Shown one piece after another: positions 3,541 through 26,425 of a stretch of 34,647 nucleotides of DNA; the stretch's first letter is position 1, and each line of letters begins with the position of its first letter. The stretch lies in the IMG/VR virus record IMGVR_UViG_3300030329_004577, positions 1 through 34,647 of that record. One strand, 5' to 3'. Position numbers and translations under genes: made by a program. The DNA comes from a virus. The notes beneath the pieces were generated by a model. It ran no database searches, had not been told where the DNA came from, and saw nothing but the letters and a program-made list of their open reading frames with translations.

Positions 3541-4269
3541 TTAGAATCTGCTAAATGCGACTGCTATAACTGCGTTTGAAAATGTGCCTGTTGTTGTAAC
3601 TTTTAAATACCTGTTGACCGTTCCTGTAGCCTCTACCCGCTCCGCAGTAGGAACATCTGAGGTTCCGGTTGCGGTGAAGGTAACAAGGTCTGCATAGGTG
3701 CCACCGCTTGAAGTGGCGTGTTGAACTTTTACTGTTACGCTTCCGGATGCCAGGGACATAATTTGCATATATCCCGCTCCCCCACTTGCGGAAGAAGCTC
3801 CACTATCAACAACCGTTCCCGATCCGGCTGAAGAATGAGTATCATCGTGAGCTGTCAACATCTCGCCGAACTCACCGCCCATTCCGTTGCCGTTAAATGT
3901 GGAACTAACAGTCATGACCGAACCCTGGGATCGACTGACGTTATAATCGGCTTCCTTTGCTGATATCCCCACACAGTCATCGCCGACACTAGCCCCAAAT
4001 GGAACGAGTACAACCTGGTCAGCTGTTGGAAGTTTCCCGCTGTTGGATGTAAACGTTGCGTGAATTTTGTTTGATGCGTTATCAAAATATCCGCTAACTC
4101 CTAGCGACCCATCTGCCCGACCTATCATTCTCGAAACAGCACTTTCATTTAATGCCGTCGTTTCCATTGTTTCTTGTGTATAACCCGCACTATCTATTGC
4201 ATTGGCATCTCCTGACAGGTCGTTGCCCATTACATAAAGCCGAGTATTTAAACCGTTCTGAATTGCCAT
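3541..4269 (-). CDS. Major tail protein with C-terminal decoration domain (242 aa)
   Basis: Residues 1-130 follow the same scheme as the 138-aa neighbour (S-A-V-S-R-M-I-G, Y-F-D-N-A-S-N-K-I-H, Y-N-V-S-R-S-Q-G-S). A Ser/Gly-rich linker at about 140-165 then leads to a second beta domain (MQIMSLASGSVTVKVQHA ... VNRYLKVTTTGTFSNAVIAV). Similar C-terminal domains are common on siphovirus tail tubes, as in the Ig-like domain of lambda gpV. The length and extra domain make it the best candidate for the major tube subunit, with the smaller paralogue as a partner. Confidence 0.8.
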   Translation of the reverse strand: MAIQNGLNTRLYVMGNDLSGDANAIDSAGYTQETMETTALNESAVSRMIGRADGSLGVSGYFDNASNKIHATFTSNSGKLPTADQVVLVPFGASVGDDCVGISAKEADYNVSRSQGSVMTVSSTFNGNGMGGEFGEMLTAHDDTHSSAGSGTVVDSGASSASGGAGYMQIMSLASGSVTVKVQHATSSGGTYADLVTFTATGTSDVPTAERVEATGTVNRYLKVTTTGTFSNAVIAVAFSRF

Positions 4270-4278: not shown

Positions 4279-4713
4279 CTAGACTGCTATTGGAACATCG
4301 CCCAAAATCAAAACCGAAAGAGGAATGTCCAATGTCCGATACGCAACTCCCCCAATATCTGCATATCCAGTTGTTGATTCACCAATTTCTATATCCGATG
4401 CGTTTCCTGCTAAATCGGAATCTCCCCTGAGTGCGGTGTCGATATTTACCATTGCGTCCCAAATATCCAGCTCCAAGGATTCCCTAACATCCGCAGAGGT
4501 TTGCATCCTGAAATACGCCCGAATAGTGAACTCGGTAACGCTGGAGCTATCAGCCAGGGTCATTTCCCTAACCGAGCGACCACTTACCCAAAAAGCCAAC
4601 ATTGGAGTTCCCTGTACACTTAACGGCTCGCCCCTTAGAACCGCAGTAAATGCCGGATCAGAAACCGTACTTAACAGAGCGTCTATTCGGTCTATTGCTC
4701 CTGATCTACTCAT
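4279..4713 (-). CDS. Putative tail terminator/completion protein (144 aa)
   Basis: It lies between the gp10-like tail component and the tube proteins, where tail terminators of the lambda gpU type are normally found. The sequence (MSRSGAIDRIDALLSTV ... EMTLADSSSVTEFTIRAYFRM ... GYADIGGVAYRTLDIPLSVLI) alternates helix and strand, consistent with that small alpha/beta fold. No motif is diagnostic. The start overlaps the upstream gene by 4 nt, so the two are translationally coupled. Confidence 0.6.
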   Translation of the reverse strand: MSRSGAIDRIDALLSTVSDPAFTAVLRGEPLSVQGTPMLAFWVSGRSVREMTLADSSSVTEFTIRAYFRMQTSADVRESLELDIWDAMVNIDTALRGDSDLAGNASDIEIGESTTGYADIGGVAYRTLDIPLSVLILGDVPIAV

Positions 4714-5108
4714 GAAAATTCCTCACGAATGGCACGTTCAAATAAATCGTCAACCGCTTTGGGTTTTTTGTTTAACCATTGGGCGGTATTCCTGAACATC
4801 CTGTAACCCTTAAATCTGGAGCGTTTATTCAAGGTTGAAACACCTTCAACCCAATATGAATAAATCAGATTTGCACCAAGTAATTTTTCACCCGCATCAA
4901 TAATTGCGTGCAGGTTTTTTGTCGGATGTAGATAGCCGAGAACGTGCTTAAACAGGTTTCCAGTTTTAAACCCATGCCCTGGCGTTAACTGGCTTCTAAC
5001 ATCTTCCATTCCCAGGCGGGCTATATCAGTCAAAGCTCGGTTTCCAGCCTTCACAAGCCTGGCAGATGGGTTGTCGAAAAAAGCACCAGAGGTTTTCATT
5101 CTTGTCAT
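4710..5108 (-). CDS. HK97 gp10-like tail component (132 aa)
   Basis: A basic, mostly helical protein starting MTRMKTSGAFFDNPSARLVK, with L-T-P-G-H-G-F-K-T-G-N-L, a pattern typical of the gp10/minor capsid head-tail joining family (the P-x-x-T-G-x-L signature). It lies directly after the connector and before the terminator gene, in the usual order. The ATG overlaps the TAG stop of the connector (TAATG-type coupling). Confidence 0.65.
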   Translation of the reverse strand: MTRMKTSGAFFDNPSARLVKAGNRALTDIARLGMEDVRSQLTPGHGFKTGNLFKHVLGYLHPTKNLHAIIDAGEKLLGANLIYSYWVEGVSTLNKRSRFKGYRMFRNTAQWLNKKPKAVDDLFERAIREEFS

Positions 5109-6025
5109 TAGAAATACACCTCTGAGACAGGTGTTGTTGACCTGTATTGATCCAATGTGGACAGGATATTTGTAGCCGTTGAATCTGCCCTGGTTACCTG
5201 TTGCTCTCCGACTCCGATTGTTAAAGTTGTTCCCATGTCTCTATCTCTGAAATAAATTTTTGCGAGGTCGAGACAGGCCTGGACAACCAGAGCAGGATAT
5301 TCATAAACGTATACAGATGCTCCCGCACTATGGCTTGCCGCCGTTGTACCGTTAACCCCTCTTTCCGTGGTGAGCGTATTAGATGAAATTCCTGTTATAT
5401 ACATTTGCTCTGAATCAACAAGAATTGTCTGAGCTGTACTTAACCCAGATGCATCATTAACGCCCCAGGATGTAACAGATGAAGAAACTGTTCCGGTTGT
5501 TGTTTTCTCTGTAGATGTGTCATTTGAGTAACCCCAGGTTCCGGCGATTGCCAGGGTTTGTTGACCCGCATGAAATCCCTTGCCAGTATCCTCATTGAGT
5601 TTCAAACTAACTTTTGGACTGGAATTATATGGTTCCAGCCAGAAATCCTGATTGTAGCCTTCAACCAATGTTTCAGACTGATCTCTGTCAGTTGATTTAT
5701 ATGAAGTGACAGAAGTGGTACTAATTAACCAATCATCAAGAACAATTATTGAAATCAGGTTTTCAACTGTCCCAATTTCATTGCTGTAGGATTGTTGAGC
5801 CATCAATTGAGGCGTGGAACGGAGTATTCCCTTTCCTATGTCGTAATAATGGGTTTCTGTTCTGGCTCCGAAACTCTGCATGCCAACATAATTGTCAATT
5901 CTTGTTGATGCCGTTTCCAAGATGCGTCTTAATACTCCGGTGTCACTTGTCCAACCGGAGCTGTAAGAAGTACCCGCCAGGTAATCCCGAAATGTGTCTA
6001 TTGAGGCATATGTGTGCCTTGCCAT
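5108..6025 (-). CDS. Head-tail connector (gp6-like) with an inserted beta domain (305 aa)
   Basis: The N-terminus (YASIDTFRDYL ... RRILETASTRIDNYVGM) and C-terminus (PALVVQACLDLAKIYFRDRD) form the helical halves expected of a phage head-tail adaptor. Typical family members are nearer 100-200 residues. Here a beta-rich segment at about 165-245 is inserted (ILVDSEQMYITGISSNTL, TERGVNGTTAASHSAG), a motif seen in many virion proteins. This accounts for the extra length. The domain assignments are from memory of the families. Confidence 0.7.
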   Translation of the reverse strand: MARHTYASIDTFRDYLAGTSYSSGWTSDTGVLRRILETASTRIDNYVGMQSFGARTETHYYDIGKGILRSTPQLMAQQSYSNEIGTVENLISIIVLDDWLISTTSVTSYKSTDRDQSETLVEGYNQDFWLEPYNSSPKVSLKLNEDTGKGFHAGQQTLAIAGTWGYSNDTSTEKTTTGTVSSSVTSWGVNDASGLSTAQTILVDSEQMYITGISSNTLTTERGVNGTTAASHSAGASVYVYEYPALVVQACLDLAKIYFRDRDMGTTLTIGVGEQQVTRADSTATNILSTLDQYRSTTPVSEVYF

Positions 6026-8278: not shown

Positions 8279-10342
8279 TTACGCCTCTTGCATTTCTGGT
8301 TTGTAATTTCTGTCCATTGGAGTCCATGAGAGGGTTCCGTTTGGATGGTCGGAGATATTTATTGCGTCTTCAGCGTGATAAATCTGGTTATGCCTTTCAA
8401 TACAGGTGCGACCATATGGATCACCAGGGTCAACATATGTGTCCCCTTCATCTCCGTCTGGGTCGGTAGCCCTTAACCAGTCGAAACCCTGTTGTCTGAA
8501 AAAACCAACAGAGGTCATGTTTTGCGACCTCATAATTTCTGTGCGGGCGATTAATCTTGCCCTGACTTTGGTTTCACCTAATTTGGTTCTCAGTCCAACA
8601 AAATTGTCAGCAGGAACGCCCCTGGCTAACATCTCTACTGAGTAACCTCGGTTTATAGCCGTCTCAACGGCGTTTTGTACGACTTTTCTGGTGGTTCTGT
8701 GGATTATGGTTGCCCTGGGGTTTGCCTGGGTAACAACTGACTGAACTGCGGATGCCTGTTCTGACCATTCCAGTTCCCCCGCAACACCTGATGCGTTTAT
8801 GTGACCGAATGTTCTGCGGGTAACATTAATGAAGGCGTTATGTAATATATTGGAGAGTTCCCCTAATTCCGCATCTGGTACGAGCTGTGACCATTCAAAG
8901 GGAAAGTCCTTTGTCTCGAGTTCGATATCCCTCTCCATGTACCGCCCCAGGTAGCCGTCGACCTTGTTTTTTATTCTGGTCAGATATTGGTTGAGTCTTT
9001 TATCTAAATCCTCAACTAAAACTTCTCTATCCTGTAAAAGAACCTGTCTCAATTTGACTGCCCTGGGTGCAACTGGATCGAGTCGTTTTAATTCACCAAT
9101 TGCTCCACCCTGTTCAATCGCCATCGGCATATTATTTTCTAAGGCATTACCCTCAATAATGTTGATAGGGATTCGTCTGACCTCACCCTCTGTAATAGAG
9201 TCCTGCCCAACCATTTCCCTTGCTTCATTAAGAGTGATAATGCCGGAAGTAAATAATGTCGTTGCCCTGGTTGTTACCGAATCTTTATCTTCCAGAAAAG
9301 CCCTCATTTGGGAGAAATCAACCATGATTTGACCGTCATTGGGAAAGTCGGAATAAAAACAATAATTAAAGAACCGGACAAACCGTTCTATTAATGGTTC
9401 TAATGTTTCGGAATGGAAAGACAGCCTGGCCTCTTTATAGTTGCTGAATGTGGAACGTTGCAATCCCACATTAGCCCCTACCAGGATTGCGGGAACACCT
9501 AACACCGCACATATTCTGGACTCAGTTAAATTGTGCAGTTCTGTTAGTGCCATATCAGACGGAGCTGAGGCCATCTGTTGAAATTCGGCATCATCATCAA
9601 TGACTGCCACCTGGTGCATATTTTGCGAACCCCCAAATGTGGAACGCCACCTTGAGCGGATTCTTGTTGCTTCTTCCTGGGACGTTAATCTCCGTTTGAT
9701 TTTTAACAAGCCGGAAGGAACACCCGCATTTGAAAAATACGTTTTGGCAAAATCAGTCATCAACATATCGAGATTAATATTCTTTGCCAGAACGTGGAGC
9801 GGGCTTAATCCATAAACGTCACCGGATGGATTAGGAAGTGCCATGTGAGCAACATCTTCATAAGGTAATTCATATTCCTTGCCGTCTATCTCATATGCAT
9901 AGGAATTGCGACCTGTTTCGTTGGGTTTGATCGAAACCCTATCCGGTCTGAGTAACCATAACGCCCCGACCTGGTTGCCCCTGTTTCTTTCCTTATATAC
10001 ATAAACATTTCCGGCGACTTGAAGATAAGTGACAGCTCTTTCGATCCATGTATACCAGTCATGTTCGGGGTTGGGATTTTTGACCAGTTTAGCCAGAGGA
10101 GAATTATCAATTTCAGTAATTCCGGAGTCATCTTTACGACCAACAAACCACCTCGCACCGGAAACTCCTGTCGACAGCTCCCGAATACAAGCGTGAACTA
10201 TCTCTGACCTACCGTAGCCCTGGGAAGCAAAGTTTTCATAATTATCTGTCGGATAAACGACATTCGTTAAATCCGACACGACAGGGACGGTTGATGAAAT
10301 ATCTGTTTCTATTTGTTTGGTAAACAGGTTCCAAAATGCCAA
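8279..10342 (-). CDS. Portal protein fused to a MuF-like minor head domain (687 aa)
   Basis: Residues 1-400 are an HK97-type portal (NPNPEHDWYTWIERAVTYLQ, GNVYVYKERNRGNQVGALWL, G-L-S-P-L-H, VPAILVGANVG). Residues about 420-687 are a MuF/SPP1 gp7-like minor head domain, with ARTEIMRSQNMTSVGFFRQQ, the turn G-F-D-W-L-R-A-T-D, a single C-I-E-R-H and the end H-P-N-G-T-L-S-W-T-P. These are often two neighbouring genes, but here they are one polypeptide. The portal ring is the DNA entry gate, and MuF proteins are injected or connect the head. It starts at an ATG in a 260-bp spacer after the rightward cassette. Confidence 0.9.
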   Translation of the reverse strand: MAFWNLFTKQIETDISSTVPVVSDLTNVVYPTDNYENFASQGYGRSEIVHACIRELSTGVSGARWFVGRKDDSGITEIDNSPLAKLVKNPNPEHDWYTWIERAVTYLQVAGNVYVYKERNRGNQVGALWLLRPDRVSIKPNETGRNSYAYEIDGKEYELPYEDVAHMALPNPSGDVYGLSPLHVLAKNINLDMLMTDFAKTYFSNAGVPSGLLKIKRRLTSQEEATRIRSRWRSTFGGSQNMHQVAVIDDDAEFQQMASAPSDMALTELHNLTESRICAVLGVPAILVGANVGLQRSTFSNYKEARLSFHSETLEPLIERFVRFFNYCFYSDFPNDGQIMVDFSQMRAFLEDKDSVTTRATTLFTSGIITLNEAREMVGQDSITEGEVRRIPINIIEGNALENNMPMAIEQGGAIGELKRLDPVAPRAVKLRQVLLQDREVLVEDLDKRLNQYLTRIKNKVDGYLGRYMERDIELETKDFPFEWSQLVPDAELGELSNILHNAFINVTRRTFGHINASGVAGELEWSEQASAVQSVVTQANPRATIIHRTTRKVVQNAVETAINRGYSVEMLARGVPADNFVGLRTKLGETKVRARLIARTEIMRSQNMTSVGFFRQQGFDWLRATDPDGDEGDTYVDPGDPYGRTCIERHNQIYHAEDAINISDHPNGTLSWTPMDRNYKPEMQEA

Positions 10343-10540
10343 GCAAACCCCAATGGCTTGAGGGTACTTGCCTTGACCACCATCAGGATTGAAGTGAGAT
10401 CAGTACAAAGGAAGAAACAACAATGTACCGACCCCACAGATGTCACCGTTGAAAATATCGCCCAAATCTCAACTTAACATGCTCATTATCTCATTGTTAC
10501 AAATACCTTGTCCAATTTTTAAAATTGCGTGACTAAACCC
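10343..10540. other. Spacer between portal gene and rightward cassette
   Basis: No convincing gene. The portal gene needs a promoter or read-through from terL, since the intervening genes point the other way. I see no clear minus-strand -35/-10 pair here. A half-operator TTGTTACAA lies at about 10493. Confidence 0.4.
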
Positions 10541-10569
10541 TTGTCTATTGTGTAACATAGTGTTACAAT
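10541..10569 (+). promoter_or_regulatory. Promoter of the rightward cassette (P1)
   Basis: TTGTCT at 10541-10546 and TACAAT at 10564-10569 are separated by exactly 17 bp, with a start expected near 10576 and an AAGGAG site at 10591. The same 28-base layout recurs at 25178-25206, with two differing bases in the spacer. Confidence 0.8.
10552..10566. promoter_or_regulatory. Operator dyad GTAACA-TAG-TGTTAC in P1
   Basis: A perfect 6-bp inverted repeat with a 3-bp spacer, covering the spacer and first three bases of the -10 of P1. An identical 15-mer occurs at 25189-25203 and a one-mismatch variant at 25135-25149. I infer a repressor operator. Confidence 0.75.
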
Positions 10570-10602
10570 ACATACATAGAAACAAACAGGAAGGAGAACA
10601 AA

Positions 10603-10788
10603 ATGACAAACGAAATAAGAACAATAGAAGCCCACGAATCCGAAGATGGAAAGGTTCACCATTTCGGGCGATGTACTTCAATAGTGTGTTACCAAGTATT
10701 TGACACCAATGACATTACAGAAGTGGTGAGAAATCAATGGGGTCAATTCATCTGCATCCCATGCAAAACAGACGGACGAAACGGCTAG
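10603..10788 (+). CDS. Small Cys-containing protein, first gene of the cassette (61 aa)
   Basis: MTNEIRTIEAHESEDGKVHH ... with four Cys (GRCTSIVCYQV and FICIPCKTD). C-x4-C and C-x2-C pairs about 30 residues apart could bind one zinc. AAGGAG precedes the ATG by 7 nt. It is unlike any family I can name. Its promoter (10541-10569) and operator are shared with the early genes at 25.2 kb, so it is probably expressed early rather than with the flanking late genes. Confidence 0.75.
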   Translation: MTNEIRTIEAHESEDGKVHHFGRCTSIVCYQVFDTNDITEVVRNQWGQFICIPCKTDGRNG

Positions 10789-10818
10789 ATTAAAATACCA
10801 GGTATCCAGGAGAACAAA

Positions 10819-11046
10819 ATGAAAGCACCGGATAAAATACAAAATAAAATAGATAACATGATCGAGTTGATACAGGAGATATCTTCTGAGCTTGAGTACA
10901 TATCATATGATTATGACGATCTCGATTCAAACGAACAAAAACAGATTCCAACAGTCTTAAAAAACATTGAGTCGCACTTGAGAAAAACCGCTCCACTTTT
11001 TACCCATTTAACAGGAAACAACAAACCAGATTGGGGAAGTAAATAA
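10819..11046 (+). CDS. Small acidic helical protein (75 aa)
   Basis: The protein starts MKAPDKIQNKIDNMIELIQE and is predicted helical over most of its length, with an acidic stretch Y-D-Y-D-D-L-D-S-N-E near the middle. CAGGAG lies 9 nt before the ATG. It is the second gene of the cassette, 30 bp after the first. No family recognised. Small acidic, DNA-mimic-like proteins are common among phage anti-host genes, but this is only a size-and-charge impression. Confidence 0.75.
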   Translation: MKAPDKIQNKIDNMIELIQEISSELEYISYDYDDLDSNEQKQIPTVLKNIESHLRKTAPLFTHLTGNNKPDWGSK

Positions 11047-11086
11047 AGCGATTAATCAACAAAGTTAACCAGGAGAACTAAATAAC

Positions 11087-11317
11087 ATGAAAAAAAACCC
11101 TGTGATAATAGTTAATAGCGAAACTGTTACCAATGTGTCCATAGATCATGCCGATTTTATCGGGGATGGGGTTGTTTTGGAGATAGATTTTCTACTGTAT
11201 GGGAAATTAGTCGGCAATATAGAATTGGAACATCCCAATATTGATGCCATTCGGGAATTAGCCTCGATGATTAATCAGGTGGCAGACAAGTGGGAAAAAA
11301 CGCATTCACCATTTTAG
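11087..11317 (+). CDS. Small unknown protein, last gene of the cassette (76 aa)
   Basis: It starts MKKNPVIIVNSETVTNVSID, a beta-rich first half (VVLEIDFLLYGKLVGNIELE) followed by one helix (IDAIRELASMINQVADKWEK). An AGGAG ribosome site lies 13 nt before the ATG, a rather long spacing. The gene ends 15 bp before the end of the convergent HTH gene, with no clear terminator in the gap. No family recognised. Confidence 0.75.
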   Translation: MKKNPVIIVNSETVTNVSIDHADFIGDGVVLEIDFLLYGKLVGNIELEHPNIDAIRELASMINQVADKWEKTHSPF

Positions 11318-11331: not shown

Positions 11332-11592
11332 TTACTTTTTAGATTTTCGCCTGATAGGGCTTTCCGGAAATCGTTCATTATATTGGTCTATAAGTTGCTT
11401 TATTCTTTGACTACTTAATCCGACACAATCTCCTATTTCTTTCAATGTAATTCCAGGATTCTTAATACATAAGTCATTAATAAGCTGATATCTCCTTTCA
11501 AATTTTTGGATAGTTTCGTCGTCATATTTTCCATATGGTTGATGAATGTAATATGACTGTAATCGCTTTTTAAACAAATTCGAAAATTTCAT
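11332..11592 (-). CDS. HTH DNA-binding protein after terL (86 aa)
   Basis: The stretch YQLINDLCIKNPGITLKEIG followed by C-V-G-L-S-S-Q-R-I-K-Q-L-I-D is a helix-turn-helix of the sigma-70 region 4 type. The N-terminus (MKFSNLFKKRLQSYYIHQPY) and C-terminus (R-R-K-S-K-K) are basic. The ATG directly follows the stop of the Com-like gene. It may regulate late transcription; the target is unknown. Confidence 0.7.
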   Translation of the reverse strand: MKFSNLFKKRLQSYYIHQPYGKYDDETIQKFERRYQLINDLCIKNPGITLKEIGDCVGLSSQRIKQLIDQYNERFPESPIRRKSKK

Positions 11593-11712
11593 TTAATCAA
11601 CGGTATTTTTCGCCCTACACCTGGGACATATAATTACAGTCCCCTGCCCCGCCTTCTCAGCAAGTAACTTCTTGCATTGCTTGCACCGTAAATCTTTCAC
11701 TACTTGTACCAT
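11593..11712 (-). CDS. Com-like zinc ribbon protein (39 aa)
   Basis: The 39-residue peptide MVQVVKDLRCKQCKKLLAEK continues with CPRCR. Two C-x2-C knuckles (C10, C13, C29, C32) and the L-R-C-K-x-C-x-K-L-L opening match the phage Mu Com family, a zinc finger that activates translation of the mom DNA-modification gene by binding its mRNA. The ATG overlaps the terL stop (TAATG) and the stop abuts the HTH gene, so the three are coupled. The Com role is family knowledge; the mRNA target here is unknown. Confidence 0.75.
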   Translation of the reverse strand: MVQVVKDLRCKQCKKLLAEKAGQGTVIICPRCRAKNTVD

Positions 11713-12899
11713 TACCAAACTCCATAACCTGGCACATTATTAGACCCATAAACTCCCAGGGCTAGAGCCATAACACAGTCGTCATGCAATCCCTGGGGAG
11801 CCGAATATCTAACTCCGGTTCTTGTGTATTCATATCCGAAAGCGTCCAATTCGTTCACAATGTCCCCCTCTGGGTATTCAATATTCTTTGACTGTATTGC
11901 AACAGACAGTCCTTCCATTAACCGTTGTTTACTAGAAGGGCTAAAATGGTAGCCCTGGACGTTAGATAGCGACCTCTGTAGACGTTCCACAATAGGGTCA
12001 CCAACACCTGTTGAGTCAATAATTGCCGGAGTATTTCCAATTGCTTTTATAATCCTGCCCAGGGTTTCTTCCCAGGGTAATTGAAATCTTTCAAATCTGC
12101 AGACCCTGTTATTTGCGTCCAATCCAATCGCCACCGTCCAGTCGACCGATTTAGCCAGGTCAATTCCAAAAACTACCGGAGCCTCTGAGGATAGAGTTCC
12201 AATACATTCTTTAATTGCTGACTGTCCGAATGGATTACCGCCGTCATCAGAAGGTTCGGCTAAATACAACTCCTTGAATACATTGTCCGGCAATTGTGCT
12301 TGAGCTTGTTCTATCTCCTCTATATCCAAAACTCCGGCATCAACTGCGTCATAGGCGGTTAGTTTTGCATAATGCCAATTTTCTACACCACTCTCTGCCA
12401 TTCGTGCCAGTTTGTAAGCCCAATTCCTGCGACCCTTAACGTTTCCAATAATCCTGATGGCGCCCCTGGTTGCAGTTAGCGTTGAACGTATAGCATGCCA
12501 GGATTCTTCCCTTGCCCTGGTTGCCTCATCTATGACAGCTCCATAAACGTCCTCACCGTACAGGTTGTCCGGTTTCTCTGCGGTCTTAAATGCCACCGTC
12601 GCACCGTTGACCAGGGTAACAGTTAACTCCGATTCATTAGAGGTGTACACACTAACGTCAAGGCCTCTTTTTAATCTGCGAAATGCGATTTTTGCTTGAG
12701 GGTATACCGGAGCAATCCACCAATATGCCTGACCATCCTGACCCCTCATTGCCTGTTCCAGAATCCACGCTAAACATGCAACAGTTTTCCCACACTTTGT
12801 TGAACCTTCGATTACTGAATATCTATGTTGGGAAAATATTGCTTCCTTCTGTTTTTGGTACAGATTCGGGGGCTTGTATATAATCGTCTGCGTTGTCAT
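11712..12899 (-). CDS. terL: Terminase large subunit (395 aa)
   Basis: The ATPase half has Walker A E-G-S-T-K-C-G-K-T near residues 31-39 and Walker B A-V-I-D-E-A near 121-126. The nuclease half has acidic residues in F-G-I-D-L-A-K-S-V-D, I-I-D-S-T-G-V-G-D and H-D-D-C-V-M-A-L-A, the RNase H-like set. This motor cuts and packages DNA into the prohead. I choose the ATG at 12899, which has GAGG six bases upstream; an in-frame TTG at 12911 lacks this spacing. It overlaps terS by about 77 nt. Confidence 0.93.
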   Translation of the reverse strand: MTTQTIIYKPPNLYQKQKEAIFSQHRYSVIEGSTKCGKTVACLAWILEQAMRGQDGQAYWWIAPVYPQAKIAFRRLKRGLDVSVYTSNESELTVTLVNGATVAFKTAEKPDNLYGEDVYGAVIDEATRAREESWHAIRSTLTATRGAIRIIGNVKGRRNWAYKLARMAESGVENWHYAKLTAYDAVDAGVLDIEEIEQAQAQLPDNVFKELYLAEPSDDGGNPFGQSAIKECIGTLSSEAPVVFGIDLAKSVDWTVAIGLDANNRVCRFERFQLPWEETLGRIIKAIGNTPAIIDSTGVGDPIVERLQRSLSNVQGYHFSPSSKQRLMEGLSVAIQSKNIEYPEGDIVNELDAFGYEYTRTGVRYSAPQGLHDDCVMALALGVYGSNNVPGYGVW

Positions 12900-13311
12900 T
12901 CGATGCCTCAATTTTGAATGTAATTGGGGTTTGACTAACCTGGAGACTGTTTTGTTGGATTGCCATATTAATCAGAGGCTTATCAGGTATTACTCCGTTA
13001 ACCTGGTTGATTCTATCCATAATCTTTAGCACCCTGTCAATGGCGGCGGGATCGCCTTGCATTGCGGAATCCCATTGTCTTAATAACAGGGCGTTATATC
13101 TTTCCATTTGAATGGTTCTGACCTCATCAGCATTACCGATGCTTTCCCTGGCTAAATCTCCAACAACCTTGCGAATATCCTTACTGACAAGACCATGCGA
13201 GATATTTTCTGTTTCCGCAATCTGCCTGTCTGTTGCTCCCGCAACTTTCATCTGCAATATTCGATAACGCCTCAATTGGGCGTTCACTTTTTTACCGTTA
13301 GGACTAGGCAT
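12823..13311 (-). CDS. terS: Terminase small subunit (about 162 aa)
   Basis: The N-terminal region [22 protein letters not shown] is a helix-turn-helix as in small terminases that recognise the packaging site. A long helix ([20 protein letters not shown]) for oligomerisation follows, and the C-terminal tail is unstructured. It is directly upstream of and overlapping terL. The ATG at 13311 is preferred over TTG at 13314. It overlaps the end of the PRTase-FolE gene by 8 nt, which places packaging and DNA-modification genes in one transcript. Confidence 0.82.
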
Positions 13312-14149
13312 CAATTAAACCCATAAATTCGGCTCTTGCTTCCGGTTTATCTCTTAAAACACCGCTCATGTAACTGGTTACAATGTCGGAGTTTTGTTTA
13401 CCTACACCTCTAGACATCATGCAATGATGCTTTCCTTTTAATACCACTCCAACCCCTAAAACCCCACCTGTTTCAATTGCCTCTCCTATCTGACGAGTTA
13501 TCCTTTCCTGAATCTGCAACCGCCTGGCATAACAGTCAACAATTCTGGCTATTTTGGAGATTCCTAGAACCTGACCATTGGGGATATATCCAACGTATGC
13601 TTTCCCATAGAATGGCAACATATGGTGTTCACACATGGAATAGAACTCTATATCTCGTGCTATCACCATTTCGTCAGTATCGTCTTTGAACCATTTCAAC
13701 AGCTCCTGGGGGTCTTGGTTATATCCGGCATAAAGTTCAGACCAGGATTTAACAACCCGCTCCGGTGTTTCCACTAATCCATTAGAACCAACATCCTCAC
13801 CAATATATTCAATGATCCTGGTTACTGATTCCGCAATGTCAGCTTCCCCGCTTTCCTCCCAGGGAAACACAACCCACTCATTCTCGAAATCTCTGATTTT
13901 GTTATATAAACACAAAATTGGAACCCCATATTTGCTCCACTCATCAACTGTTCTTCCGCTGTCCACAATATCGTCAATTATTAAATCGGCTTCTTCAGGT
14001 GATTTTGCAACGGTGGCGGTTGTCATTAAGGTAATAAGCCCCTCAACCACTTTGCCACCTCTGGGAATCCCATAAATAGCCTTTCCTTCACAACGATCCA
14101 GGAAATATTCGATTCTGTTTTCTACATCTTGCCAGGTTAAATAAAGCAC
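13304..14149 (-). CDS. folE: Phosphoribosyltransferase-GTP cyclohydrolase I fusion (281 aa)
   Basis: Residues 1-100 form a type-I phosphoribosyltransferase domain, with Y-G-I-P-R-G-G near 26-32 and the PRPP loop [11 protein letters not shown] at 57-67. Residues 105-281 are a full GTP cyclohydrolase I: zinc ligands C173 and H176 in M-C-E-H-H-M-L-P-F and C243 in [12 protein letters not shown] to dihydroneopterin triphosphate is the first step of preQ0 synthesis. The start is GTG, overlapping the queE stop (TAGTG), with GGAG 7 nt upstream. FolE alone is typically near 180-220 residues, so the added domain is notable. Confidence 0.92.
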
Positions 14150-14820
14150 TACTCAACTCCAATTACTTTGTGCGTCTGTACTGATAATCTCCAATCCTGG
14201 GCTTTGGGTAAGGAATAAAGTTTGGACAGAGTTAATTCCATGTTTTGTTTGCTAATGTCCGCATCTTCAGCTTCTATAGGTTGTAGCCATCGGCTCTTCG
14301 TTCTCACGTTTAAATAGCCCTCTGGCCTTATTAGCGGGTTCGGATGGGGATATAACAATTTAAGACTGTCACACCATCTCTGCTTTGTTTGTTGGTCGGG
14401 TAATTTTGGTGACATGGTTAAATGGTCAATATTGGATAAGGTTCCCTCTGGAAACAGTCTCGTCCCATTGGTTTCAACACCTATCTTGAACCCCTGTTGT
14501 TTTATAGCCAGGGCAAGAGGTTTATCTAACTGCAATGCGGGTTCACCGCCTGATATCCAGACCCAACCAACGCCAGGCATTGCAAGCTCTTTTACCTGTT
14601 CCATAATGTCATTTTTAGACATCATTTTTTTACTCAGGAAATCAGTATCACAGAACGGACACTTCGAATCTGCCCTCGTTTCCGGTCTACCGTCCCACAT
14701 ATTGCAACCGGAGAACCTTATAAAGACACAAGGTATTCCCGCCATTGCTCCCTCACCCTGTACAGTTGTGCCGAATATCTTATGGATTCCGTACTGTCGC
14801 CGAGCTTTTTTCGGTTTCAT
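14149..14820 (-). CDS. queE: 7-carboxy-7-deazaguanine synthase QueE (223 aa)
   Basis: A radical SAM protein with the QueE-specific wide cluster motif: C39, C54 and C57 in [13 protein letters not shown] and [13 protein letters not shown] lies at 20-24 and the S-G-G-E-P SAM motif near 90. It turns carboxytetrahydropterin into 7-carboxy-7-deazaguanine (CDG), the third step to preQ0. It overlaps queD by about 41 nt and is coupled to the FolE fusion downstream. Length is normal for the family. Confidence 0.93.
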
Positions 14821-15199
14821 ATAACGTTAACCTCTCAATTGTTAGGTGTTCCGGTAAATCCTGCAAAATATCAAAGTGAATATCCATTGCTAACCTTTCG
14901 GCAGTCGGTTCATAGTAGGCATGAGATACAACCGAAATAATGCTTCGATTTTCACCGTTAAACCTGGGGTCATCTGCATTTACATGAAATGAATGGTCAT
15001 AATGTTCTTCGATTATCGGTTTAACCACTTCATCAAGATCACCGAAATCAGTTACCATTCCTGTCGTTTTATCTACCTCTCCACTCACCTCAACTTCCAT
15101 CCTGTAATTATGTCCATGCGGGTTATAACATTTGCCTTTATGCCGATATAAGGCATGCCCCATCTCCCAGGCGTATTCCCTGGTTATTGATACTTTCAT
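14780..15199 (-). CDS. queD: 6-carboxytetrahydropterin synthase QueD (139 aa)
   Basis: A T-fold protein with zinc histidines H15, H28 and H30 and active-site C24 (M-G-H-A-L, K-C-Y-N-P-H-G-H-N-Y), then M-V-T-D-F-G-D-L, D-H-S-F and P-T-A-E-R-L-A. It makes carboxytetrahydropterin from dihydroneopterin triphosphate. I start it at the ATG at 15199, with GAGGT seven bases upstream; the in-frame GTG at 15208 has a worse site. The ATGA overlap with the upstream DUF6884-like gene shows coupling. Confidence 0.92.
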   Translation of the reverse strand: MKVSITREYAWEMGHALYRHKGKCYNPHGHNYRMEVEVSGEVDKTTGMVTDFGDLDEVVKPIIEEHYDHSFHVNADDPRFNGENRSIISVVSHAYYEPTAERLAMDIHFDILQDLPEHLTIERLTLYETEKSSATVRNP

Positions 15200-15633
15200 T
15201 GCGTCCACCTCTTTAAAAATCCCTTCTGTCTGTTATTTCTGCCAGTTGTATATTCCTGCAACGGTGCTTTAATATCTGAAATTAATTGTTTTAATAACCG
15301 GAGATAATCTCGTCCCCCTATAAAAACAACAGGCGGGTTTCTCAAGATTTTCAATTCCTTTATCTGCTTTTCTACTGTTGCAATATCCACAGCCCCCTCA
15401 ATTCGATTTTGACTCCACCAATTTGTGACTCCCTTAACTTTTACTTCATACGGTTCTAATTCGGTGTCCAAAGTAACGATTCCATACTTAGCAGATATGA
15501 TGTAAATGTCCTTTCGTTTTGCCCACTTACTGGCACACCGTAAACATGACCGAAAATAACTCCCTGTATAAAGTTTCCATGCAGGGCTTTTTTCTTTTCT
15601 TTTTGTATGTCCGCAGGAAATAATTACGATCAT
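15196..15633 (-). CDS. DUF6884-like protein in the deazaguanine operon (145 aa)
   Basis: The pattern I-S-C-G-H-T-K-R, P-A-W-K-L-Y-T-G-S-Y-F, I-I-S-A-K-Y-G-I-V and L-E-P-Y-E-V matches, from memory, the DUF6884 family found with 7-deazaguanine DNA-modification genes in phages. Four Cys (C7, C30, C33 and no clear partner cluster) do not form an obvious zinc knuckle. It lies between queC and queD with zero-gap and ATGA junctions, so it acts in the same pathway, possibly in further change of the inserted base. Its reaction is unknown to me. Confidence 0.7.
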   Translation of the reverse strand: MIVIISCGHTKRKEKSPAWKLYTGSYFRSCLRCASKWAKRKDIYIISAKYGIVTLDTELEPYEVKVKGVTNWWSQNRIEGAVDIATVEKQIKELKILRNPPVVFIGGRDYLRLLKQLISDIKAPLQEYTTGRNNRQKGFLKRWTQ

Positions 15634-16323
15634 TTAAACTTTTATAAACTCCACATATTGAGTCGGGTCTTCCATACCTATTAATTCAAATGCCTCTTTT
15701 CGTTCCACGCACGTTCCACAAGTACCGCAATGAAACTCATCTCCCTTGTAACAGCTCCAGGTCTGGGAATAATCAATCCCCAACTGCCGTCCTAACTCCG
15801 CAATATCGGCTTTGCTTTTATCGATAAACGGTGTCCAGAGTCTGAGGTTGGGATGACCATGACCTTCAACGGCACATCTCTGCATGAAATCAAATCTGTC
15901 CACAAATTCCGGTCTGCAGTCTGGATATATGGCATGATCTCCGGCATGCATGGCCGCACCTACTTTGGGAACGTTTAAAGAAACCGCCTGGGCATATGCG
16001 ACTGTTAACATGATGGCGTTCCGGTTTGGTACTACCGTCACCGCCATTGTTTCTTCCTCATAATGACCGTCCGGCACTTCAATAGAATCATCGGTTAGAG
16101 CTGACCCACCTAAAACCGAATTAATTCCGGATATGTCAATTACTTTGTGCGGAGCGTCTATATTTTTTGCAAGTAACTGGGCATATTCGATTTCCTTCTT
16201 ATGTCTTTGCCCATAATCGAAAGTTATTAAATAGGGTTTCCCATGATGCTCTTTTACCAGGTGAGCCAGGGTAGCCGAATCCATTCCCCCACTAACAACA
16301 AGAACATGCGAATAATCAGTCAT
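15634..16323 (-). CDS. queC: 7-cyano-7-deazaguanine synthase QueC (229 aa)
   Basis: PP-loop ATPase with S-G-G-M-D-S at 11-16 and the Cys4 zinc site near the C-terminus (W-S-C-Y, then C-G-T-C-G-T-C-V-E-R-K). It converts CDG plus ammonia to preQ0 using ATP. Length is that of stand-alone QueC; there is no glutamine amidotransferase extension (as in Gat-QueC of archaeosine-making phages), and I see no QueF. The ATG overlaps the stop of the DpdA-like gene (ATGA) with GGAGG at the ideal distance. Confidence 0.95.
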   Translation of the reverse strand: MTDYSHVLVVSGGMDSATLAHLVKEHHGKPYLITFDYGQRHKKEIEYAQLLAKNIDAPHKVIDISGINSVLGGSALTDDSIEVPDGHYEEETMAVTVVPNRNAIMLTVAYAQAVSLNVPKVGAAMHAGDHAIYPDCRPEFVDRFDFMQRCAVEGHGHPNLRLWTPFIDKSKADIAELGRQLGIDYSQTWSCYKGDEFHCGTCGTCVERKEAFELIGMEDPTQYVEFIKV

Positions 16324-17141
16324 ACAAAAACCTCCGAATCTTTTTTATAAGCCATTAAGCACATTTCCAACGCCTGGCGGGTTGTTAGTGCGAGAAACAA
16401 TTTGGTTTTGAATTGTGTTTCTACATCCATTGCATAGCGAGTCCAACTCTGGCATCCCAGGGTTCGTGAGATAGACCAACCGCCACGCCAGTTCTTTTCT
16501 ATCTGCAACTCCCTGGGATTAAATCCATAGGATCGAATTATTTTCCACATTTGAGAGGATGGTGCAGTTTCTATTGCCTCTTTTTTACTGTATGACTTAA
16601 ATACACCCTTTCCCATATACACCGATATCTGCCCATATCTCCCGCCGGATTCCCAGGACGAGGCATCACACGAGAAGGGTTTGTAATGTCCCACCATTGA
16701 TGAATGAGTTAATCCCAACCAATGCAGAGGACGGTTTTTATTTTTACTGATAACGTGCTTTAAATAGCCCTTGCTGTTCTTTGTACCTACCAGCCCACCA
16801 ATGCCAACAATGTCACTCGTTTCATAGTAATAATCCAGGTCATCCAAATCCGAACCCCTGGTGAATATAGGTATTGGTTTGAATCCTCTATTCAACATAA
16901 TTTCATAATTCTTTTTTGTTCCCTGGGAATCTCCGATTTTGTCCAGTACAAAATACCGCCAGGGCTTAACAGGCAAAGATTCCAGAAAATCCATATATTC
17001 CTCAACCGAAGTTTCTTTCCCCGATTTCCAGTCAGTAAAAGCACCGGAGTCGATTAACAGGCGTATATCTCTCTCATGTTGAGATATAAACGAAACCATA
17101 TCTCGAGTCATATACGGATAAGCAATTAAGAGATTAAGCAA
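16320..17141 (-). CDS. dpdA: DpdA-like DNA guanine transglycosylase (273 aa)
   Basis: A TIM-barrel protein related to tRNA-guanine transglycosylase. I-D-S-G-A-F at 30-35 (D31) matches the TGT D-S-G-G-F motif, G-I-G-G-L-V-G at 113-119 the substrate-binding loop, and D159 in F-S-C-D-A-S-S-W fits the nucleophile position. No zinc-binding C-x-C-x2-C-H of tRNA TGTs is present, as in phage DpdA enzymes that act on DNA. It would exchange guanine in DNA for preQ0. The start is TTG at 17141; the first strand L-L-I-A-Y-P would be lost from the next ATG, at 17111. It overlaps the ParB-like gene by 8 nt. Confidence 0.85.
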   Translation of the reverse strand: MLNLLIAYPYMTRDMVSFISQHERDIRLLIDSGAFTDWKSGKETSVEEYMDFLESLPVKPWRYFVLDKIGDSQGTKKNYEIMLNRGFKPIPIFTRGSDLDDLDYYYETSDIVGIGGLVGTKNSKGYLKHVISKNKNRPLHWLGLTHSSMVGHYKPFSCDASSWESGGRYGQISVYMGKGVFKSYSKKEAIETAPSSQMWKIIRSYGFNPRELQIEKNWRGGWSISRTLGCQSWTRYAMDVETQFKTKLFLALTTRQALEMCLMAYKKDSEVFV

Positions 17142-17730
17142 TTTCTATATCCGGCATATCAATAAATATTTCGTCCAACATGTCCACTATTTCGGATTTT
17201 CTGTCGGCGGGACACTCGACAATTATTTTGCTTGTTATTCCCTGGTCTGTTTCGTTTATAGAATTAACGGCATCAAATTGCGGTTCCCAATCTCCCAGGG
17301 GTTCAAAGCCTGGCGTAATACCGTTGCGAATGTTTTCTAATAATTGGCTCACCCTTGAGTCATCTGATTCGATGTTATCTAACAGGTTAACGAGTATCGA
17401 CTGGTCAGAACCCGCCATGACAGAGATAGGGTCGAGGGTTGTAAGAATTAAATCTGCTTCTTCCTCAGTAACATCCAACACCAGAACCGGAACAATTGCA
17501 TCCGGTGTTGTCTCAGCCCTTAAATGTCCGTCAATTAAAACAAGCCCCTCGTCTGTTTCGTATGCAATAAGTGCATCTGCATATCCTATCTCCTCAAGTA
17601 ACCCCGCCATTGCGGTCTGCTGGGATGGTGGATGAGTACGCCAGTTTTTGGGGTTTGGAATCAGGTCTGAAACCGATACCCGCCGAAAATCTTTAATTCG
17701 GTCTTTGACAATACCATGATCCATTGTCAT
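17134..17730 (-). CDS. ParB-like nuclease/CTPase-fold protein (198 aa)
   Basis: Residues 15-105 are a ParB N-terminal domain: V-S-V-S-D-L-I-P-N-P-K-N-W, then G-L-V-L-I-D-G-H-L-R-A near 65, the ParB box with H-L-R replacing H-R-R. There is no ParB HTH or dimerisation domain. A GGGGG site precedes the ATG, making this the first gene of the modification operon. ParB-like proteins sit next to DpdA in several phages and in bacterial dpd clusters; I infer a DNA-targeting partner of DpdA rather than a partition protein. Confidence 0.8.
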   Translation of the reverse strand: MTMDHGIVKDRIKDFRRVSVSDLIPNPKNWRTHPPSQQTAMAGLLEEIGYADALIAYETDEGLVLIDGHLRAETTPDAIVPVLVLDVTEEEADLILTTLDPISVMAGSDQSILVNLLDNIESDDSRVSQLLENIRNGITPGFEPLGDWEPQFDAVNSINETDQGITSKIIVECPADRKSEIVDMLDEIFIDMPDIEIA

Positions 17731-17758
17731 TGCTTACCCCCATATGCTTACACGCTAC

Positions 17759-17778
17759 TTGTACAAATTTGGTACAAA
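17759..17778 (+). promoter_or_regulatory. Integrase arm-type site, left copy
   Basis: TTGTACAAATTTGGTACAAA, identical to 17987-18006 and in the same orientation. The unit is itself nearly two-fold (TTGTACAA and TTGGTACAA). It lies 105 bp left of the attP core. I infer a binding site for the integrase N-terminal domain or Xis. Confidence 0.6.
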
Positions 17779-17883
17779 GTTTTTTTGTTGAAAATATGGG
17801 CGTTTTTATAAATATAGAAGATTTGTGACTATAAACTAAATTCTTTCATGGTTTTTTTATTTATATGTAAGAGTACCTGATAA

Positions 17884-17928
17884 TTCGTAAAGTGCAGGTC
17901 GTCAGTTCAATCCTGACCGTTGGCTCCA
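17884..17928 (+). other. attP: attP core: 3' part of tRNA-Thr(CGU)
   Basis: 45 bases read as the 3' portion of a tRNA: loop TTCGTAA (anticodon CGT), 3' stem AGTGC, variable AGGTC, T-arm GTCAG-TTCAATC-CTGAC, acceptor strand CGTTGGC, discriminator T and CCA. The 5' half is not present: the bases before TTCGTAA do not pair with AGTGC. This is the standard shape of a phage attP that restores a tRNA gene upon integration. Confidence 0.85.
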
Positions 17929-17986
17929 TCTTTTAGGAACGAAATCGCCTTATTTTGATAAGATTTCCAATTTATTAAATTAAATT

Positions 17987-18006
17987 TTGTACAAATTTGG
18001 TACAAA
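17987..18006 (+). promoter_or_regulatory. Integrase arm-type site, right copy
   Basis: Second exact copy of the 20-bp repeat, 58 bp right of the attP core and just after the integrase stop. The two copies are 228 bp apart and flank the core. Confidence 0.6.
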
Positions 18007-18023
18007 TCTCTTCTCATCTTATA

Positions 18024-19271
18024 TCAGTTCTCAATTTTCTTGTCCAATTGAGATTGGTATTTTTCAACAGCTTCCCGCACCATTGTTTCGAATTTCTCAA
18101 CCGCTTTTTCGTCCTGTTGCGGTATCCGGTGCATGTATCCCATGCTCGTCTTGATATCCCCATGCCCGAGCCTGGCCTGGACGATTTTCGGGTTTCCTGT
18201 TTGTGCCATGATATGAGTGGCGTGTGTATGCCTTAAATCATGCGGTCTGAATAAACCTTCTAACTTACTGCCTTTCAAACGTCTACGCCATTCATCTCCC
18301 CAGGAATCAGGATTGATAAACCCACCGGAGTGAATCATGTTGCAATCATTGCAATGGGAGTTTGTGTATGCAATGTCCCTGGTGAATAACAGGTCGTCTA
18401 ATTGAAATGGTGATAATCCCAATTCCTGACGTTCTTTATTTCTTTGATCTAAATAAGCCCTTATCATCAGAGCTGTATTAACTCCAATAGATTGAGTTCT
18501 TAATCCTTGTCCTTTATTTTTATTCTTTTTGACGTTCTGATGATAATAAACGCCGTCTACATAAGTTAATTTCTTAATTATTGTTACTGTTAAAAGATCA
18601 AGGTTTATGTCTCTGATTCTTAATCCCAGAATCTCACTTCGCCTGGCACCGATATTTAAAGCAAAGAAATATGAATGAAACCATTTATTGCCTTGCAGTA
18701 AATCCAACATCAATGCAATTTCTGATTCTGACAGATATCTTTCCGTCTGGTCTGGTGCTTCCGGTTTTTCTACTCCGTCCATCGGATTGTATTTCAACGG
18801 AATTGTTTTTCGGCCTTTCGCCCAGTTAAACATCGCCCTCGTTACATCATAAGTTTTTATTGCTGATGCTGTTGTATGTTTTGATTTCTTTCCGTCAAAA
18901 CGATTAGCAAGGGTTCTTTCCAACATGTTTTCAATATGATTTTCATTTACTTTTAAGATATCCAGATTCCCCAAAACCGGAAGAACGTGATCTTTTAATG
19001 TCTGCCTGTAGACTCTGACGGTTGTGGGCTGTTTTTTTGAGAATGTTTTTTTGTCCCACTCTTTTGCCAGGTCTAGAACGGTCATCTTTTTACCCAGGAA
19101 AATTTCACCGTCTTCCATTTGAGCCTGTATACGCCGCCACCTCTTTAATGCCTGGGCTTTTGTTTCACCTATTGCTCCGCCGAATTTTTTTCTTTTATAT
19201 TTACCGCTAACAGGGTCTTTATATGAATGAAGTGTGTACCATTTACTGCCTCTTTTCTGTATTGATGCCAT
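18024..19271 (-). CDS. int: Tyrosine-recombinase integrase (415 aa)
   Basis: The AP2-like arm-binding domain at 1-60 (GSKWYTLHSYKDPVSGKYKR) is followed by a SAM-like core-binding domain at 62-165 and the catalytic domain. R210 (G-A-R-R-S-E), H344 and R347 (H-D-L-R-H), H370 (L-G-H-G) and nucleophile Y379 (M-G-Y-M) complete the active site. An insert with C307 and C310 (C-N-D-C) could bind zinc. The start follows the repressor stop by one base, with AAGGAGAT upstream, so the two genes share a transcript. The gene ends next to attP. Confidence 0.96.
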   Translation of the reverse strand: MASIQKRGSKWYTLHSYKDPVSGKYKRKKFGGAIGETKAQALKRWRRIQAQMEDGEIFLGKKMTVLDLAKEWDKKTFSKKQPTTVRVYRQTLKDHVLPVLGNLDILKVNENHIENMLERTLANRFDGKKSKHTTASAIKTYDVTRAMFNWAKGRKTIPLKYNPMDGVEKPEAPDQTERYLSESEIALMLDLLQGNKWFHSYFFALNIGARRSEILGLRIRDINLDLLTVTIIKKLTYVDGVYYHQNVKKNKNKGQGLRTQSIGVNTALMIRAYLDQRNKERQELGLSPFQLDDLLFTRDIAYTNSHCNDCNMIHSGGFINPDSWGDEWRRRLKGSKLEGLFRPHDLRHTHATHIMAQTGNPKIVQARLGHGDIKTSMGYMHRIPQQDEKAVEKFETMVREAVEKYQSQLDKKIEN

Positions 19272-20290: not shown

Positions 20291-20491
20291 ATGACACAGA
20301 ATATAAAAACGGTAGACAAACAATTAAATGAATTGGGTCGCCGGATTATCTGTAATATCGTTAACGATGCCATCCGGAAGAATTCCCCTGACCCTGTTAA
20401 TCCTGCTGTTGAGTTCTTGCCTGTCCATCTTCGGCTAATGAGTGAAGTATCGTCATTAACAGCTGAACATTGTCAGGATGAATTTGTTTAA
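20291..20491 (+). CDS. Small unknown protein opposing the second HTH gene (66 aa)
   Basis: The protein starts MTQNIKTVDKQLNELGRRII and contains no known motif. AGGA lies eight bases before the ATG and a plausible promoter lies upstream. Its last 95 bases overlap the 3' end of the convergent HTH gene at 20397-20795. A real convergent overlap or an antisense transcript are both possible; confidence is low. Confidence 0.4.
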   Translation: MTQNIKTVDKQLNELGRRIICNIVNDAIRKNSPDPVNPAVEFLPVHLRLMSEVSSLTAEHCQDEFV

Positions 20492-20795
20492 TTAGTAAAA
20501 CCGCCTCTTCAACCAGGGGATCAGGATTTTGCACAATCAGGTCTTCATCATCTATGTACCCCGCCAGGCGAAATAATCTTGCCCTGGGTACGTTCATCGC
20601 ACTTGCTAATGCCCGAATGGTTTTTTGCCTGGGTTCGCTCCCATTTCTCATTTGAGTAAATAGAGCGTTCGGCAGTCCGGCTTTTTCAAACAGTTTAGAA
20701 CCTGTTTTGATATCGCTGTTGGGGCGTTCTTTTCTATGTGTCTCAATCCAGTCTTCAATAAACGCAAAAATAGGCGTACGTGAATCTTGAGTCAT
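20397..20795 (-). CDS. XRE-type HTH regulator (132 aa)
   Basis: Residues 20-70 form a Cro/CI-type HTH (LFEKAGLPNALFTQMRNGSE, then QKTIRALASAMNVPRARLFR), followed by a C-terminal helix pair (LVEEAVLLIKQIHPDNVQLL). The ATG at 20795 has AAGGAAGG four bases upstream; the in-frame ATG at 20825 has no site. It is divergent from the early operon at 20984 and so could control the promoter at 20857-20885. Confidence 0.75.
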   Translation of the reverse strand: MTQDSRTPIFAFIEDWIETHRKERPNSDIKTGSKLFEKAGLPNALFTQMRNGSEPRQKTIRALASAMNVPRARLFRLAGYIDDEDLIVQNPDPLVEEAVLLIKQIHPDNVQLLMTILHSLAEDGQARTQQQD

Positions 20796-20856
20796 AAATC
20801 CTTCCTTTTTCAATTCCGCAGTCATCTTAACTTATTGAAACGAGTTTGACTACACC

Positions 20857-20885
20857 TTGTGATTGCCTAAGAATGACAATATAAT
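20857..20885 (+). promoter_or_regulatory. Early rightward promoter with overlapping dyad
   Basis: TTGTGA at 20857-20862, 17 bp, then a consensus TATAAT at 20880-20885. A perfect inverted repeat ACAAT-ATA-ATTGT at 20876-20888 covers the -10, a likely operator. It drives the replication operon starting at 20984, about 90 bp downstream in an AT-rich leader. Confidence 0.75.
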
Positions 20886-20983
20886 TGTTTTACTGTTATA
20901 AGTTGCTTATTATTATTTATTTATAAATATGTAAGTGAAACAGGGTTTTTATAGCCATCTTAGAACAACAAAAGGAGGACATT

Positions 20984-25131: not shown

Positions 25132-25160
25132 AGTGTAACACGATGTTAAGCAATTTGAAA
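25132..25160 (-). promoter_or_regulatory. Leftward promoter of the Cro-like gene
   Basis: On the minus strand TTTCAA (25160-25155), 17 bp, then TACACT (25137-25132). The expected start coincides with the ATG of the 62-aa gene. The operator variant 25135-25149 covers the -10 in the same place as in the two rightward promoters. Confidence 0.6.
25135..25149. promoter_or_regulatory. Operator variant GTAACA-CGA-TGTTAA
   Basis: One mismatch in the dyad against the perfect copies at 25189-25203 and 10552-10566. The 54-bp centre-to-centre distance from the perfect site is about five helical turns, which would allow cooperative binding. Confidence 0.6.
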
Positions 25161-25177
25161 ACTCAGGAACAAAGTCG

Positions 25178-25206
25178 TTGTCTATTTCGTAACATAGTGT
25201 TACAAT
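25178..25206 (+). promoter_or_regulatory. Second early rightward promoter (P2)
   Basis: TTGTCT at 25178-25183, 17 bp, then TACAAT at 25201-25206, almost identical to P1. It drives the chain of small genes and the methyltransferase (25250-27481). Confidence 0.8.
25189..25203. promoter_or_regulatory. Operator dyad GTAACA-TAG-TGTTAC in P2
   Basis: Perfect 6-bp inverted repeat overlapping the -10, identical to 10552-10566. Confidence 0.75.
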
Positions 25207-25249
25207 AATCCTGTATTAGAACAAATGACCTAATTAACAGGAGGACAAA

Positions 25250-25426
25250 ATGACAACAGTAACTAAGTTCCAGACCCGCTTCGGGGAAACCGCCTGGGCG
25301 GTTACCTGGGGGCCAGGGTTGACCCAGACGGTTATCTGCTCCTCTGAGGAAGAGGCCGCAGAGGTCGCAAAGACCCACAGGGCAGAGGCTCGATTCGTCG
25401 AGCCTCTGGTGGAGTTGGTTGCCTAA
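25250..25426 (+). CDS. Small unknown protein (58 aa)
   Basis: The protein starts MTTVTKFQTRFGETAWAVTW, beta-rich, then an acidic helix C-S-S-E-E-E-A-A-E-V-A. CAGGAGG precedes the ATG. The stop overlaps the next ATG (TAATG). Codon use is visibly richer in G and C than in the neighbours (CCTGGGCGG, GGGGGCCAGG), perhaps from another source. Confidence 0.65.
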   Translation: MTTVTKFQTRFGETAWAVTWGPGLTQTVICSSEEEAAEVAKTHRAEARFVEPLVELVA

Positions 25427-25584: not shown

Positions 25585-25654
25585 ACGCATACGGCGACTG
25601 CGTATCGTGTTCGGATTTGACGGCAAACTCAAAATCATTTACAGGAGCAAATAA
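25568..25654 (+). CDS. Very short basic peptide (28 aa)
   Basis: MKKLIKRIRRLRIVFGFDGK plus eight residues. GGGAG lies nine bases upstream and it overlaps both neighbours (17 nt, and TAATG at the end). The strong positive charge (K-R-I-R-R-L-R) after an acidic gene is notable. Its reality rests on spacing and overlap only. Confidence 0.4.
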   Translation: MKKLIKRIRRLRIVFGFDGKLKIIYRSK

Positions 25655-26416: not shown

Positions 26417-26425
26417 AAGGAAGAT

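Follow-up and report, generated by a model that had tools for sequence, protein, structure and literature searches.

Promoter/stem-loop (PeSL) shuffling cassettes of T4-type phages were reportedly described by Arbiol in 2010 and by Comeau in 2014. In the extracts of the literature on which we draw here, such PeSL cassettes are mentioned (PMC4503421), and phage morons are described as extra genes that lie between otherwise adjacent genes, carry their own promoter, have an atypical base composition and are absent from relatives (PMC4378225). According to similar extracts, acr-aca operons carry inverted repeats over their promoter elements together with a small HTH autorepressor (PMC8434428), and the stoperators of Cluster A mycobacteriophages comprise 20–30 oriented sites, mostly not at promoters (PMC6550527). 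Judged by the excerpted text, the closest described parallel in layout to the locus reported here is Tab of the Pseudomonas phage JBD26, a small minus-strand moron gene that lies next to the terminase in the late block and has a promoter of its own; unlike the present locus, it sits between terS and terL, is transcribed from the prophage and has no shared operator in the description given there (PMC10884400). No account of an operator-linked cassette in the terL-portal interval turned up in our literature search, which is not proof that none exists.

The locus lies in the genome of a temperate-type phage, a 34,647-bp IMG/VR virus contig that was analysed over its whole length (the window). The 98-bp stretches at 3–100 and 34550–34647 are identical, indicating that the genome is probably complete and circular-mapping. 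Late genes run leftward, with portal and terL both on the minus strand, and between these two genes three rightward ORFs of 61, 75 and 76 aa (A, B and C, within 10603–11317; Table 1) run against the late block, as the initial annotation had described. Each is preceded by a similar SD/start block of the AGGAGAACAAAATGACAA family, another copy of which is found at 25239. The GC content of the cassette is 37.1%, compared to 45.8% for terL and 44.7% for portal, and an equally low value was seen in 1.8% of 777-bp windows. Codon statistics did not clearly separate A–C from shadow ORFs and are thus uninformative, so that the coding status of the three genes rests on their SDs, the tandem layout, an in-frame homologue of A and the analogy with two relatives, L009 and L010, described below. 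The terminator listing held no terminator-like site on the plus strand between 11317 and 12342, and the fold z after C was 0.71; the cassette transcript may therefore run antisense into D, E and terL. No RNA element or tRNA was found in the window.

Table 1. Positions of the cassette, its neighbours and the control elements in the window
Feature	Position	Strand	Basis or remark
Portal protein	8279–10342	–	Pfam Phage_portal, E 1.3e-66
Conserved 29-nt element just upstream of portal	10354–10382	–	right-hand boundary of the variable island
Copy of 54-nt direct repeat	10517–10570	+	78% identical to 25154–25207
Cassette promoter, TTGTCT-17-TACAAT, TG before –10	10541–10569	+	consensus match, repeat of 25178
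Operator O3, palindrome GTAACATAGTGTTAC overlapping the –10 region	10552–10566		palindrome scan
Gene A, 61 aa	10603–10788	+	Cys/His pattern, zinc-ribbon-like (by eye)
Gene B, 75 aa, probably helical	10819–11046	+	Pfam LPD11 sub-threshold, 19.2 bits vs cut-off 27
Gene C, 76 aa	11087–11317	+	model of low confidence (pLDDT 60) with three strands and a helix
Gene D, 86 aa, HTH-like	11332–11592	–	late strand, 30% GC
Gene E, Mu Com-like zinc ribbon	11593–11718	–	PF10122, 23.3 bits vs cut-off 22.9
Terminase large subunit, terL	11712–12911	–	PHROG terL, E 5.8e-38
Tyrosine integrase	18024–19271		
CI-like repressor candidate, separate control region	20397–20825	–	phrog_3949, E 2.8e-8
R, small HTH regulator, 62 aa	24937–25125	–	profile searches
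Operator O1, 2 mismatches, just upstream of R start	25135–25149		palindrome scan
Promoter of the e1 operon, TTGTCT-17-TACAAT, source or sister of the cassette promoter	25178–25206	+	consensus match, exact repeat
Operator O2, palindrome GTAACATAGTGTTAC overlapping –10	25189–25203		palindrome scan
R-flanked operon	25250–27250	+	small ORFs e1 and e2, DUF7249 protein, 162-aa ORF, m5C methyltransferase

Searches with the cassette proteins returned little. Family profiles and PADLOC gave no match that assigns a function to A–C (PADLOC produced weak matches for B only), and the profile search detected no HTH in any of the three. Phage-record searches with the 4-kb region, with A and with B were empty, and the same search with C gave two weak Enterococcus phage matches only (E 0.2 and 1). 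PDB sequence searches with C and R yielded nothing under E 0.07, and neither for A (pLDDT 52) nor for C was the AlphaFold model reliable enough for a fold search. No relatives of B or C were found.

The proposal that the cassette promoter is a near-copy of the promoter at 25178 with the same operator was confirmed, as the two promoter-operators are identical at 28/30 positions and their operators at 15/15. The sequence TTGTCTATTnnGTAACATAGTGTTACAATA, common to both promoters, occurs exactly twice in the window and in none of 100 dinucleotide shuffles, the strongest copy statistics in the whole comparison. With up to three mismatches allowed, the palindrome was found in three places only: 10552, 25189 and, in degenerate form, 25135. 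Since the only further operator-like site adjoins R, genes A–C most likely belong to the regulon of R, and the cassette is most likely tied to the R module and not visibly to the CI-like module. We propose R as the predicted repressor of all three operators. A leftward R promoter placed by visual inspection would have its –10 overlapped by O1 and the R start only a few bases downstream, a layout resembling that of the leaderless lambda cI. Exact operator searches in viral contigs gave 0 matches, and searches for R relatives gave three short matches, in whose records the operator pattern was no better than in others. A stoperator network was ruled out by the number of sites. As in the excerpted description of Cluster A (PMC6550527), the putative repressor sites spread beyond the immunity region, but the three sites in the window are palindromic and all lie at promoters.

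The initial annotation had taken 25178 for the early promoter of this phage. It is not the only early-type control region, as a second one lies at 20826–20983, where the CI-like gene and the replication operon meet, and the palindrome scan with up to 3 mismatches did not find the GTAACA-N3-TGTTAC operator in that region. The 25178 promoter belongs to the R module and the CI-like module is separate; that the cassette is expressed early is therefore something we infer. The window further encodes an O-like replication protein and an IstB/DnaC-like protein; four 16-nt-spaced G-rich repeats inside the O-like gene (22339–22418) are probable origin iterons.

We compared the terL-portal junction across relatives. 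The terL searches yielded 54 loci and the portal searches 8, and 20 records, window included and near-copies kept (L006/L007/L008/L023 and L058/L063), carried both genes on one contig. The junction was nearly empty in 5/20 records (L005, L013, L014, L026 and L065; gap of 128–262 bp) and held other genes in 15/20 (513–3513 bp); with the replacement seen between L009 and L010, the presence, absence and swapping envisaged in the initial annotation were all encountered. A–C were absent from every other junction examined. When 24 cassette proteins from the window, L003, L006, L009, L010, L012 and L062 were compared, matches were limited to a weak pair inside L062 and the L006-type/L012 pair, in which the 114-aa antisense gene of the L006-type records corresponds to a 72% relative that runs in the sense direction at the junction of L012. 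This near-total lack of matches indicates that junction genes change freely. Antisense ORFs of 50 aa or longer with a preceding SD numbered 23 in the 20,569 bp of junction from the 20 records (1.12/kb) compared to 14 in 55,681 bp of flanking terL/portal sequence (0.25/kb). Given this background rate, chance may account for the small single ones (the contig of L057, L058 and L060). We regard as firm the antisense genes of the window, L009, L010 and L062, and also those of L003, whose portal is not on the contig. Sense-strand genes fill the slot in L011, L012 and L059, showing that antisense orientation is not required. With other genes or none at this position in relatives, the junction has the appearance of an exchange slot for accessory genes.

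A structural or late function for A–C was rejected on account of their absence from the examined junctions of relatives. That they are not conserved structural genes agrees with the initial annotation, as no relatives of B and C were found and the one relative found for A lies off the junction. Of the neighbours of the cassette, D has relatives at the same junction in L058, L063 and the contig of L057, E is conserved next to terL in many relatives, and the 29-nt element upstream of portal is retained in several. Com of Mu activates mom translation, and the Com-like character of E together with the conserved element near portal suggests that E might act on the portal leader.

The junctions of L009 and L010 align in three places only, with no alignment in between: an 85-nt portal-side segment (84.7%), a 127-nt segment of the promoter region (86.6%) that stops about 3 nt short of the start codon, and a 164-nt terL-side segment (96.3%) that begins at the last stop codon. 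Between the conserved flanks lies one 184-aa gene in L009, and unrelated genes of 149 and 96 aa in L010. Strong terminators with a stem-loop and U run were predicted at 9335–9312 in L009 and 4158–4133 in L010 (fold z of –3.2 and –3.0). As aligned, the predicted promoter and terminator are constant in this pair, and the genes between them are fully replaced.

Promoter copies were also seen in relatives. The junction promoter element of L009 recurs at 17043 (22/25; next best elsewhere 16/25) and at 18647; the 18647 copy directly precedes the first gene (17688–18620) that points away from the late side. The sequence AGGTATAAACA has 4 copies in L009, each of them on the strand of the cassette, against an expectation of 0.06 (0 of 100 shuffles), and the early-side promoter copies of L009 carry an operator different from that of the window. 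The operators thus differ by lineage, with GTAACA-N3-TGTTAC in the window, AGGTATAAACA in L009 and others in L003 and L062. L003 has three 91-nt promoter copies (67–77%), each preceding antisense genes, and its cassette ends in a terminator. In L062, allowing up to 2 mismatches, the promoter is present three times, twice in antisense and once in sense orientation, always within the island of that phage and never at an early operon. The motifs for the L009 and L062 copies were chosen after inspection. In a generic 24-mer control, which is weak, random segments did as well in 1/60 cases for the window, 0/60 for L009, 9/60 for L003, 1/60 and 3/60 for L062, 40/60 for L007 and 52/60 for L010, so that L007 and L010 (the latter a contig of just 9.3 kb) showed no promoter copy above background in this test. 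L003 also contains GGGGGGC-TTTC-GCCCCCC hairpins repeated between its antisense genes (3973–3990 and ~4283–4300), of which the one at 3973 is terminator-like in the late direction.

The sole relative of gene A that we found is at 5001–5180 of L057 (74–76% aa and 87% nt identity); the terL proteins of the two phages are 70% identical. Over 59 shared codons with in-frame gaps there are 4 synonymous and 14 nonsynonymous codon differences, similarity fades at the ORF ends, and by eye the zinc-ligand positions C-x4-C/H ... C-x2-C are kept. In the contig of L057, the A relative is the first gene of a rightward operon that diverges from the late block; the terL-portal junction there lacks A and is occupied by a D-like sense gene. 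Gene A thus appears to shift between the junction slot and an operon of early type. Its place in the L057 operon supports, but does not prove, the label "early" for the cassette. Just after the A relative, L057 has a type I hammerhead ribozyme match (5202–5253; 29.9 bits, below the gathering score of 34), and a second hammerhead-like core was seen by eye upstream of it (~4930–4985).

Compared with described systems, the cassette resembles a moron in its insertion between genes that are adjacent in relatives, in its own predicted promoter, which matches the consensus and shares an exact repeat with that at 25178, and in its atypical composition. It differs in having three genes and no detected terminator, and in a promoter that copies another promoter of the same phage, operator included. 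Some morons are also expressed from the repressed prophage. A repeated, predicted early-type promoter bordering interchangeable small genes (2 copies in the window; also in L009, L003 and L062) is reminiscent of PeSL cassettes, and the stem-loop coupling is present in L003, L009 and L010 but was not found after the window cassette. The window phage is, however, an integrase-bearing phage with a 34.6-kb genome and not T4-type, the operator within the promoter differs between lineages, and the site between terL and portal is fixed. As in acr-aca operons, an inverted repeat (O3) overlaps the cassette –10 and R is a candidate small HTH autorepressor; unlike in those operons, R is 14.6 kb away, no HTH was detected within the cassette operon itself (the HTH-like gene D runs on the opposite strand), and no Acr was identified among the cassette genes.

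We consider it likely that A–C form a mobile, moron-like unit placed antisense in a hypervariable terL-portal slot and brought into the R regulon by a duplicated promoter-operator. This reading is supported by promoter and operator identity, the empty or differently filled slots, the L009/L010 swap and the second genomic position of A. Upon phage entry, with no R yet present, the e1 operon and the cassette would fire together from their near-identical promoters; R, expressed from its own O1-overlapped promoter, would then bind O1, O2 and O3 and shut off all three. Acr-aca circuits give a short expression pulse, and by analogy we favour such a burst followed by shut-off for the R regulon. Recombination would take place at the promoter: a constant promoter (with a terminator in relatives) around changing genes would provide a homology handle for cargo exchange, and cargo exchanged there would at once come under the phage's own control. 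An anti-host function is conceivable, and an anti-defence role of A–C is a reasonable guess from their location and turnover.

The main rival, which we think unlikely, is that the cassette is a prophage-expressed moron acting in lysogenic conversion or superinfection exclusion. R would then be a lytic-phase, Cro- or Aca-like regulator, and in the lysogen the cassette and the e1 operon would be active, with the replication operon silenced by the CI-like protein. The integrase and a separate CI-like gene, with a control region that lacks the operator, are consistent with this. R is, however, transcribed away from the e1 promoter and both promoters carry operators, an arrangement that is just as common for a lysogeny repressor. 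What would separate the R-pulse and prophage-moron readings is the presence or absence of R in a lysogen. The Tab moron, as described in the extract, offers the prophage-moron reading a precedent of a minus-strand gene near the terminase that is prophage-transcribed from its own promoter (PMC10884400).

Two other explanations appear weaker still. The cassette may be a near-neutral remnant of a past recombination that brought an early piece (promoter and gene A) into the junction, the promoter being a fossil. The 14 nonsynonymous and 4 synonymous differences between A and its L057 relative, which give no sign of strong constraint, the lack of relatives found for B and C and the uninformative codon scores fit such a history; but no damage is seen in the promoter, operator, SDs or reading frames, the gaps in A are in-frame, and the slots of several relatives hold other promoter-led genes, and we regard a passive remnant as improbable. 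That the antisense transcript itself is functional, tuning terL and portal expression early, we consider very improbable: the antisense geometry and the lack of a detected terminator after C would suit it, whereas strong terminators end the L009, L010 and L003 cassettes, and the slot of some relatives holds sense genes or nothing. Relative to these alternatives, we return to the moron-like unit under R control. Its extension to relatives would make the terL-portal junction an exchange port in which a repressor-operator promoter, with lineage-specific operators, serves as a portable recombination handle that enlists cargo, a temperate counterpart of the T4 PeSL cassettes with counter-defence cargo; this generalization is tentative, and we would not rely on it. 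The terL-portal slot together with a copy of the phage's own operator-bearing promoter provides a guide, by position and by regulation, to rapidly changing accessory genes of uncultivated phages that are invisible to sequence similarity. The question of how temperate phages gain genes without breaking their control circuits also becomes testable, with promoter-operator copies as possible homology arms and cargo swapped exactly from promoter to terminator, as in L009/L010.

Several further observations concern the genomes compared here. In L074–L088, terL relatives of 53–64% identity occur in genomes of many phyla, and the other window genes are distant (about 23–35%) or were not found, so terL itself seems to travel; with at most 64% identity across many phyla, the terL relatives indicated no host. 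In the window, clustered FolE, QueE, QueD, QueC and queuine tRNA-ribosyltransferase-like genes (13304–17141) likely reflect 7-deazaguanine DNA modification. The major capsid gene of L058 contains a group I intron (5165–5398; 96.6 bits), and the capsid reading is split near the same residue (~160) in L006, L013, L026 and L064.
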